A stretch of 64,000 nucleotides of DNA from the NCBI RefSeq assembly GCF_000023825.1, contig NC_013061.1:5022001-5086000 (forward strand), read 5' to 3'. The DNA comes from Pedobacter heparinus DSM 2366. Lineage in GTDB: Bacteria > Bacteroidota > Bacteroidia > Sphingobacteriales > Sphingobacteriaceae. Position numbers and translations under genes: made by a program. A model generated the notes under the pieces. The model searched no databases, was not told where the DNA came from, and worked only from the letters and a program-made list of their open reading frames with translations. This document shows positions 27,605 to 28,619 of the stretch, piece by piece; position 1 is the stretch's first letter, and every line of letters begins with the position of its first letter.

Positions 27605-27607
27605 GAC

Positions 27608-27645
27608 AAAAAAAAGAGTGACCCCATCCAAGGTCACTCGTTTTT
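27608..27645. terminator. bidirectional rho-independent terminator
   Basis: An 8-bp stem (GAGTGACC / GGTCACTC, 8-base loop, 27616-27639) is flanked by eight As on the left and GTTTTT on the right. It can end the amidohydrolase transcript (plus) and, more strongly, the tRNA-like transcript (minus, eight Ts directly after the stem). Confidence 0.85.
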
Positions 27646-27671: not shown

Positions 27672-27816
27672 TGGCTGTTGGGGAAGGAGTCGAACCTTCA
27701 AGGGGTAGTTAGCTACAGTTCAAAAATTAATTTGTGGTCAACCCATAAACTGCGTTTATCCATTTATCCCCACCACCGAGACAAGAAGGCGTGTCTGCCA
27801 ATTTCACCACCCAACA
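27672..27816 (-). tRNA. class II tRNA-like gene A, anticodon GTC, Leu-type body, giant variable arm
   Basis: The strand folds into a cloverleaf. Acceptor TGTTGGG pairs with CCCAACA, and the D stem is GTG/CAC with a GG-containing loop of the leucine kind. The anticodon stem CCTTC/GGTGG (one T-T mismatch) carries loop TTGTCTC. The T arm is GAAGG TTCGACT CCTTC, and G73 is followed by encoded CCA. The variable arm starts with a GGGG/CCCC stem and encloses about 60 bases, including a 6-bp hairpin at 27745-27759. Total length is about 142 bases before CCA. The anticodon reads Asp, yet Asp tRNAs are class I. It could be a decoding tRNA, an aminoacylated non-decoding RNA, or a relic. Confidence 0.7.
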
Positions 27817-27835
27817 TGATATAAAGTACTAATTC

Positions 27836-27882
27836 ATTAAGTTTAAGATTTGGTTTAGGTTGATTCTGACCTTAAACTTAAT
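27836..27882. repeat. 12-bp inverted repeat between the two tRNA-like genes
   Basis: ATTAAGTTTAAG (27836-27847) and its perfect reverse complement (27871-27882) flank a 23-base loop. In the joint transcript this would form a hairpin separating the two cloverleaves, perhaps a processing signal. The loop contains the 16-mer ATCAACCTAAACCAAA (minus strand), also present in the trp leader. Confidence 0.75.
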
Positions 27883-27885
27883 TAG

Positions 27886-27993
27886 CTGTAGGGGAAGGAG
27901 TCGAACCTTCAAGGAGTAGTTAGCCCTTACGGGTTTTCCATTTTCTCCACCACCGAGACAAGGAGGTGCGTCTGCCAATTTCACCACCCTACA
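27886..27993 (-). tRNA. class II tRNA-like gene B, anticodon GTC, Leu-type body
   Basis: This is a second cloverleaf upstream of copy A in the same transcript. Acceptor is TGTAGGG/CCCTACA, D stem GTG/CGC, anticodon stem CCTCC/GGTGG with the same T-T mismatch, loop TTGTCTC identical to copy A, and T arm GAAGG TTCGACT CCTTC. G73 is followed by CTA, so CCA is not encoded. The variable arm opens with GGAG/CTCC and holds a CCC-loop-GGG hairpin, about 38 bases in all. Relative to copy A, the acceptor, D stem and variable stem show compensatory changes (A-T for T-A, T-G for T-A, A-T for G-C). That supports a conserved structure and not chance similarity. Confidence 0.7.
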
Positions 27994-28040: not shown

Positions 28041-28072
28041 CAAATGTAACAACAACCTCAATACGTTGCAAA
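28041..28072 (-). promoter_or_regulatory. predicted promoter of the tRNA-like operon
   Basis: On the minus strand TTTG (28069-28072) is followed after 20 bases by TACATTTG (28041-28048), a perfect TAnnTTTG. Transcription would begin near 28035, about 40 bases before tRNA-like copy B, and end at the terminator near 27608, giving a transcript of about 430 bases. Confidence 0.6.
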
Positions 28073-28145: not shown

Positions 28146-28619
28146 ATGCTTAGAAAAGAAAGCCAAAATTTAGAAATTGATAACCTGGATATAGACATCT
28201 TGAAGCAATTGATGCATGACGCAACCAAACCTTATACTGAAATTGCCAAAGATCTGATCGTTTCGGGCGGTACCATACACGTTCGTATGAAAAAGCTGCA
28301 GGAGATGGGCATCATCAAAGGCTCGCATTTAATTATTGACCCGCAAAAAGCCGGTTATGATGTAACAGCCTTCCTCGGTATCTATCTGGAAAAGGGTATC
28401 CAATATAAAGATGCTGTAGAACAGCTGAGCAAAATTAAAGAAGTTGTAGAGCTTCATTACACTACCGGGGCATACAGTATGTTTGCCAAGATCATCTGCA
28501 GGGATACCAGCCACCTGAGGCATGTGCTGAATGAAGAAATACAGGCAGTGCCCGGAATTCAACGTACTGAAACATTGATATCACTGGAAGAAAGCATCCG
28601 AAGGCAAATTGAGCTTTAA
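28146..28619 (+). CDS. Lrp/AsnC family transcriptional regulator
   Basis: The 157-residue protein has an N-terminal winged-helix domain (IDILKQLMHDATKPYTEIAKDL near 18-39, then GGTIHVRMKKLQEMGIIKGSH near 44-64). A C-terminal RAM ligand-binding domain follows (VTAFLGIYLEKG, EVVELHYTTGAYSMFAKIIC). This family senses amino acids and regulates their metabolism as octamers or dimers of dimers. The targets are unknown. It shares its upstream region with the divergent tRNA-like operon, whose promoter it could control. Confidence 0.92.
   Translation: MLRKESQNLEIDNLDIDILKQLMHDATKPYTEIAKDLIVSGGTIHVRMKKLQEMGIIKGSHLIIDPQKAGYDVTAFLGIYLEKGIQYKDAVEQLSKIKEVVELHYTTGAYSMFAKIICRDTSHLRHVLNEEIQAVPGIQRTETLISLEESIRRQIEL

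Follow-up and report, generated by a model that had tools for sequence, protein, structure and literature searches.

Why would a bacterial chromosome carry, side by side, two class II cloverleaves with an aspartate anticodon on a body that resembles tRNA-Leu? The pair stands in the window analysed here, a 64,000-nucleotide stretch of the Pedobacter heparinus DSM 2366 genome (contig NC_013061.1, positions 5,022,001 to 5,086,000), for which a preliminary description had proposed an aspartylated RNA that may not decode normally. Judging from comparative sequence evidence, we consider it probable that this RNA, here named tRL, is a non-decoding tRNA dedicated to asparagine synthesis, one that AspRS would charge and GatCAB would amidate so that asparagine is supplied. 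The U1-A72/GatCAB link, the AsnC-type neighbour, the copies on viral contigs and the co-loss with GatB go beyond the preliminary description. No published description of tRL was found in the open-access literature.

The cloverleaf pair in the window

The two genes lie on the same strand.

27886..27993, minus strand: tRL copy 1, 108 nt, short variable arm, 121.4 bits with covariance model R1 (this copy was in the R1 training set)
27675..27816, minus strand: tRL copy 2, 142 nt, long variable arm, 137.5 bits with R1 (this copy was also in the training set)

The presence of a class II cloverleaf pair was confirmed as first observed. As the preliminary description had stated, both copies carry an identical anticodon loop, TTGTCTC (anticodon GTC), a T29-T41 mismatch, T1-A72 and G73, and they likewise share G2-C71. 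The compensatory changes it reported between the copies were also found, in acceptor pair 4 (A-T/T-A), the D stem (T-G/T-A) and the variable stem (A-T/G-C), as were the very large variable arms of about 38 nt and about 70 nt. Within the arm, copy 1 has an inner hairpin with a GNRA cap (CCC-GTAA-GGG) and copy 2 an inner stem together with the conserved GGGTTGACCAC. CCA is encoded directly after G73 in copy 2.

A default Rfam search of the window region reported neither copy. In a permissive search, copy 1 matched the tRNA model RF00005 at 32.1 bits (gathering score 29), the only model accepted, with all nine remaining matches below their own gathering scores; copy 2 was not reported by the tRNA model, and its best tRNA-type match was tRNA-Sec at 14.5 bits. 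ARAGORN called neither copy in the window region. A core pattern derived from the family matched twice in the window compared with no matches in 100 shuffles. Single-strand folding energy was ordinary (z of -0.25 and 0.33 against shuffles); covariation, not folding energy, supports the structure.

Neither copy fits tRNA-Leu or tRNA-Asp in full. A73 is a recognition element of LeuRS, and in place of a Leu anticodon with A73 both copies have GUC and G73. Similarly, the class I variable loop, G1-C72 and purine 37 of tRNA-Asp are replaced in the window copies by a large arm, U1-A72 and U37. The strong AspRS identity set of tRNA-Asp (G34, U35, C36, C38 and G73) is complete in both.

A conserved RNA family in cells and on viral contigs

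The window pair is part of a widespread conserved RNA family. Both copies were matched at near full length in 33 of 35 genomes of the same genus; of the two exceptions, G021 has a partly deleted pair and the match in G006 is an ordinary tRNA-Leu. In the fragmented assembly of G021 (L038), the tandem copies look fused via a deletion between them. For wider searches, R1 was built from 19 copies, and a genome was called tRL+ when its best E-value, read from score tables, was below 1e-16. R1 scores in genomes of the class were well separated, with members at 71 bits or more, others at about 62 or less and the G093 variant at 66. By these calls, tRL is present in 50 genomes, from 19 families, among the 295 searched in the class, and in 93 of the 151 searched in the window's own family.

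A pattern scan of named genomes gave at least 120 stretches, 80 of which were covered by the R1 scan. The 80 listed are Bacteroidota by name, save one MAG named just "bacterium", and genera and families among the matches listed include Pedobacter, Mucilaginibacter, Chitinophaga, Dyadobacter, Spirosoma, Algoriphagus and Saprospiraceae. A plasmid collection yielded zero tRL matches. Copies are often in tandem, with up to five at one site; arrays of three to five occur at L100, L101, L119 and L196, with spacers of ~35 to 600 bases, and no asnC was found at these sites. One genus has altered forms, short-armed with anticodon AUC in G093 (L361/L383) and long-armed with CUC in G223 (L118), which may represent decay or a new role.

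The family extends to viral contigs, whose phage status is the classification of the source collection. Here 119 stretches match the same pattern, and all 80 scanned with R1 hold a match of at least 58 bits. A 636-kb phage record (LR756504.1) contains tRL at 105.7 bits within a 12-kb stretch in which nine tRNA genes were called. ARAGORN, run on the available stretches of 16 picked viral contigs, called at least seven tRNA genes in nine and no tRNA in five; ordinary tRNA-Asp was present in five of the nine tRNA-rich contigs and a tmRNA in one. That tmRNA lies at 1840-2225 of L309, a tRL-bearing viral contig with 19 called tRNA genes in 14.6 kb. ARAGORN did not call tRL in the window region, the tRNA-Leu comparison loci, these viral contigs or the 636-kb phage, making tRL an additional RNA missed by this program in those loci. 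The excerpted text of a huge-phage paper (PMC7162821) describes tRNAs found by tRNAscan-SE and has no mention of a tRL-like RNA.

Pairing is conserved across the family. In the model-collected alignment of 119 distinct copies, which was fitted to the covariance model, 96.8% of cells were paired compared with 91.2% after shuffling, and in 14 of the 24 pairs both partners had changed. When 23 long-arm copies from cells and viral contigs were aligned freely, 99.2% of cells were paired compared with 80.9% after shuffling, and double changes were seen in 20 of the 29 pairs; in this same alignment the best-paired columns were taken for helix 5, so helix 5 is partly fitted. Slid-register controls on the 23 copies brought pairing down to 49-57%. 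In these copies the seven acceptor pairs and five T-stem pairs were formed in 99.4% and 100% of cells, respectively. Short copies have an inner hairpin of at least three pairs in 46 of 49 distinct variants, capped by a GCAA, GTAA or GAAA loop in 34. Motifs kept in the variable arm are AUAAA-like and CUAAC-like, with GGGUWGACCAC in long copies. A tmRNA-like reading, with a stop within GGTTGA, was dropped, as the motif is GGGUWGACC and, by eye, its reading frame is not conserved.

Among ordinary tRNAs, the nearest relatives found were tRNA-Leu(GAG) genes, which agrees with the Leu-type body noted at the outset. tRL shares its D arm, A26 and outer anticodon-stem pairs with Bacteroidota tRNA-Leu(GAG) and differs from it in the anticodon loop, U1-A72, G73 and a much larger variable arm. 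tRNA-Leu(GAG) is the probable ancestor of tRL. The same similarity would suit decayed tRNA-Leu pseudogenes, or a chance resemblance, to which we assign a negligible chance: the covariance model search returned homologues with conserved stems across many families and viral contigs, and this covariation and conservation contradict both.

Allo-tRNAs offer a second comparison. In the excerpted text of PMC7609411 these are class II RNAs with many anticodons, including GUC, that are linked to serine and whose acceptor/T stems are 8/4 or 9/3. Like them, tRL has a long variable arm together with an anticodon that is neither Ser nor Leu; it departs from them, as far as that text describes them, in its 7/5 stems (scored on 7/5 pairing) and its fixed Asp set.

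Charging signals, decoding positions and the tie to GatB

Two sets of signals are conserved in tRL. According to excerpts, the strong AspRS identity set is G73, G34, U35, C36 and C38, with G2-C71 a minor element (PMC9976931), and bacterial GatCAB recognises U1-A72 (PMC4206432). Both U1-A72 and G2-C71 were present in 118 of 118 scorable copies; a viral exception, L280, has A2-U71. Of 119 loop rows, collected with a model trained on GTC copies from mostly top-scoring loci, 118 have G34 (C34 in G223) and all have U35, C36 and C38. The preliminary description had listed the AspRS identity set as G34, U35, C36, C38, G73, G2-C71 and G10. The first six elements are kept across families and viral contigs, as in tRNA-Asp, and G10 is not constant: pair 10-25 covaries and is mostly G-C, A-U or U-A. 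tRNA-Asp, for its part, has a short variable loop and G1-C72, and in the excerpted text of PMC9976931 the latter helps to seat the 3' end in bacterial AspRS. That tRL has U1-A72 in place of this G1-C72 seat for AspRS counts against the asparagine-making role that we favour.

The positions flanking the anticodon behave differently from the identity elements. Among 215 cellular copies, position 33 is T in 189, C in 14 and G in 12, and position 37 is T in 189, C in 16 and G in 10. A37 occurs in 0 of 215 cellular and 1 of 66 viral copies, compared with 20 of 22 ordinary tRNA-Asp(gtc) rows, mostly viral. T35, C36 and C38 were demanded by the parser, and five rows that proved to be ordinary viral tRNA-Asp were excluded; loop conservation in this table is partly by construction because the named and viral copies were fetched with a GTC-containing pattern, and the 119 loop rows are the fairer guide. 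In the table of tRNA-Asn and tRNA-Asp genes, loci L320 to L358 are viral, and the cellular rows are only L158, L231, L375/L384 (one gene of G440) and L361/L383 (the G093 variant). Only one tRNA-Asn, that of L231 (2151-2225), was seen among the named cellular loci retrieved with the tRL pattern, and its first pair is G1-C72 and not the U1-A72 read by GatCAB.

U33 and purine 37 are usual in decoding elongator tRNAs. This combination is not kept in the tRL family, since U33 is missing in some lineages and the window copies join U33 to U37, which supports the earlier suggestion that the RNA may not decode normally. tRL thus looks to bear the signals for AspRS and GatCAB while dispensing with the usual decoding features. 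tRL might instead be an isoacceptor active in translation, which would read Asp codons or, if serylated in the manner of allo-tRNAs, cause recoding. The intact cloverleaf and the prevalence of U33 would be compatible with this, and SerRS, in the excerpted literature, uses both a long arm and G73. Even so, such an isoacceptor is barely credible given the near absence of A37 and the loss of U33 in some lineages. Additionally, viral contigs and one cellular contig (L158) carry a class I tRNA-Asp(GTC) as well as tRL, a SerRS that ignores the anticodon would not maintain G34-U35-C36-C38, and the association with GatB described next would be unexplained.

If GatCAB acts on tRL, genomes with both GlnRS and AsnRS should keep GatCAB only together with tRL. 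We scored a first set of 80 class genomes, chosen by tRL state and completeness, and a second chosen set, 40 genomes from the window's family, judging GatCAB presence by GatB alone and scoring AsnRS in the first set only. In the first set GatB was found in 38 of 38 tRL+ genomes compared with 20 of 42 tRL- genomes. AsnRS was present in all genomes of a 50-genome subset of this set. GlnRS was scored in 50 of the 80, leaving out 11 tRL+ genomes, 12 tRL- genomes with GatB and 7 tRL- genomes without it. Where GlnRS was present (34 of 50), GatB occurred in 19 of 19 tRL+ and 0 of 15 tRL- genomes, and the 16 genomes without GlnRS (8 tRL+ and 8 tRL-) all had GatB. The window genome has AsnRS, GlnRS and GatB.

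In the second set GatB was present in 20 of 20 tRL+ compared with 7 of 20 tRL- genomes. Before the GlnRS search we set the expectation that these seven tRL- GatB+ genomes would either be without GlnRS or have a missed tRL. Four were without GlnRS and one, G341, has a 3'-truncated tRL behind a conserved promoter. The remaining two, G395 and G440, fit neither expectation, as GlnRS and GatB are present and tRL was not found; both count against a role for tRL as the GatCAB substrate in asparagine making. Pooling genomes with GlnRS, GatB occurs in 39 of 39 tRL+ and 3 of 31 tRL- genomes (Fisher 1.6e-16, from lineages that are not independent). Collapsed to genera, 28 have both, 19 neither and 2 GatB alone (p 1e-11, with two genera counted in two states). 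The two features also vary together within groups: in genus g27 three genomes have neither and four have both, and in family f36 two have neither and four have both.

GatCAB has a known partner in asparagine synthesis. The excerpted text of PMC4206432 describes tRNA-dependent synthesis on tRNA-Asn by a non-discriminating AspRS with GatCAB in Bdellovibrio and Deinococcus. The same 2014 survey lists 18 genera, including Bacteroidetes, with AsnRS, GlnRS and GatCAB and no asparagine synthetase, for which its authors suggest synthesis on tRNA-Asn. The proposed tRL route would be like this one in that aspartate on a U1-A72 tRNA is amidated by GatCAB, in bacteria also having AsnRS and GlnRS. It differs in its carrier, a class II RNA whose anticodon is GUC, predicted to be chargeable by a discriminating AspRS and seemingly non-decoding.

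GatCAB could accordingly be kept for aspartate on ordinary tRNA-Asn, with tRL linked to it for some other reason. This was proposed for similar genera with a U1-A72 tRNA-Asn (PMC4206432, excerpted text), and G440, with GatB and no tRL found, indeed has a U1-A72 tRNA-Asn. In an alignment, the AspRS of the window genome has Leu and Lys at two positions, as does E. coli AspRS. We take these residues to mark a discriminating enzyme; the AspRS of G075 and G100 (tRL- and GatB-) gave no clear contrast at these positions. With the near-perfect tie between tRL and GatB also left unexplained, we consider retention for tRNA-Asn highly improbable.

Asparagine synthetases were surveyed in the same genomes. 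In the window genome there was no AsnA match and no AsnB above the cut-off (best E 1.6e-15). AsnA was found in 5 of the 80 genomes: the four tested of genus g25, in which tRL and GatB are absent, and G223, which is tRL+ with C34 and has no GlnRS above the cut-off. AsnB-family proteins above the cut-off by E-value occur in 34 of 38 tRL+ and 40 of 42 tRL- genomes. AsnB presence thus fails to separate the two groups, and its frequency in tRL+ genomes counts against tRL as an asparagine source. Ten of these proteins were scanned (7 from tRL+ and 3 from tRL- genomes) and all fell below the E. coli AsnB equivalog cut-off. Since G111 has neither tRL, GatB nor AsnA, and no AsnB above the cut-off, the absence of these genes does not reveal the route to asparagine.

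A divergent AsnC-type gene and a proposed route to asparagine

Three further features flank the pair.

28041..28072, minus strand: Bacteroidota-type promoter TTTG-N20-TACATTTG, upstream of copy 1, identified by eye
27607..27639, minus strand: terminator-like hairpin GAGTGACC...GGTCACTC with a T run after it, lying downstream of copy 2, identified from the sequence
28146..28619, plus strand: AsnC-type regulator, 157 aa, Pfam AsnC_trans_reg, divergent from tRL

The promoter was assigned by what we take to be the Bacteroidota consensus. With this promoter upstream and the hairpin downstream, the two copies look to be transcribed as one unit. More broadly, 128 of 254 cell copies, many of them belonging to a single genus, have TTG-N18-22-TAnnTTTG in the 160 bp upstream, as does 1 of 81 viral copies; among random windows drawn from the same loci the count is 353 of 20000.

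The window regulator scored 174.9 bits with NF008384 (AsnC), compared with 69.7 for the next best model, and did not reach the curated cut-off of 227. NF008384 was the best NCBIfam model for 11 of 11 regulators from six families (156 to 184 bits, margin at least 75, all below 227). The best solved structure was regulatory protein AsnC 2cg4 (E 4.9e-37), presumably the E. coli AsnC protein. A relative of the regulator lies divergent within 400 bp at 51 of 80 named loci (80 of at least 120 stretches), in a count that kept tRL copies by loop motif. No such gene was found within 400 bp at the other 29, ten of which are truncated close to the end of a contig or stretch, or at any of 80 viral loci; these missing neighbours count against the role we propose. 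When the window was compared with 20 other loci, the AsnC cluster had 11 members and no other protein cluster had more than four.

In E. coli, asnC and asnA are arranged divergently. AsnC activates asnA and asparagine reduces this activation, according to an excerpt of PMC8707732. The tRL locus resembles that arrangement in pairing an AsnC-type gene with a divergent, putatively asparagine-making gene and differs in that tRL stands in the position of asnA. We also sought an asnA-asnC exchange, and no AsnC-like match of meaningful E-value was present beside any of the five asnA genes. That tRL is an RNA cofactor of amino-acid biosynthesis holding aspartate during its conversion to asparagine, an AsnC-regulated stand-in for asparagine synthetase and an RNA metabolic gene carried by phages appears to us to have a slightly better than even chance of being correct.

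An AsnC-type neighbour could also suggest a sensor, in which the charged state of tRL would report on Asp or Asn and act on asnC or on translation, GatCAB being retained for the readout. The divergent gene at 51 of 80 named loci and the highly conserved variable-arm loops would fit such a role. The lack of that gene at the 80 viral loci and at part of the cellular ones, together with up to five copies per site, which suggests a bulk need, makes a sensor distinctly unlikely. tRNAs also have uses outside translation, and Asp-tRL or Asn-tRL might be an aminoacyl donor for a non-ribosomal enzyme of envelope, lipid or peptide modification instead of a source of free asparagine. The identity elements and the GatB tie also fit a donor, and no enzyme releasing free asparagine was found. 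We nevertheless regard a donor role as unlikely, as the neighbour is of AsnC type and no second neighbour cluster exceeds four members, compared with 11 for AsnC.

Under the favoured asparagine-making reading, the cell's ordinary AspRS would read G34, U35, C36, C38 and G73 and place aspartate on tRL. GatCAB would then read U1-A72 to give Asn-tRL, a step with genomic support, and asparagine would be released or handed on to feed AsnRS. We infer charging and amidation from the identity elements and the co-loss with GatB. Asn-tRL would be kept off Asp codons by the pyrimidine or G found at position 37 and the loosened position 33, and perhaps also by the large variable arm. The divergent regulator would match tRL to the need for asparagine, in the way that E. 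coli AsnC controls asnA. Two points count against this reading: no releasing enzyme was found, and spontaneous deacylation would probably not be fast enough to sustain growth. A hydrolase, an enzyme of transfer or some action of the variable arm would therefore be needed; the conserved arm may take part in asparagine release or in self-pairing. Phages would carry their own tRL to keep the asparagine supply running, which would fit if hosts rely on tRL for their asparagine at a time when phages are rebuilding the tRNA pool.

If correct, tRL would be a tRNA that left translation to act as a metabolic carrier. It would explain why GatCAB is retained in many Bacteroidota with both AsnRS and GlnRS, and where asparagine comes from in some that have no AsnA or AsnB, a question already raised in 2014 (PMC4206432, excerpted text). 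tRL also points to phages bearing an RNA metabolic gene, and the question is approachable with existing assays.

Viral copies have further features of their own. After GACCAC, the viral variable arm (L240-L319) holds perfect palindromes whose sequences differ, GCCGGCCGGC, GCTTGCAAGC and GCATGCATGC among them. The longest palindrome has a mean of 7.9 compared with 3.75 in shuffles for 48 distinct viral segments, and of 4.15 compared with 3.77, or no excess, for 53 cellular segments, although the window's genus nonetheless has AAATTAATTT. The viral palindromes, on which no argument is built here, could be a hairpin or a self-dimerising loop. By eye, D-loop insertions resembling extra hairpins are present in L246, L249, L251, L286 and further viral copies.
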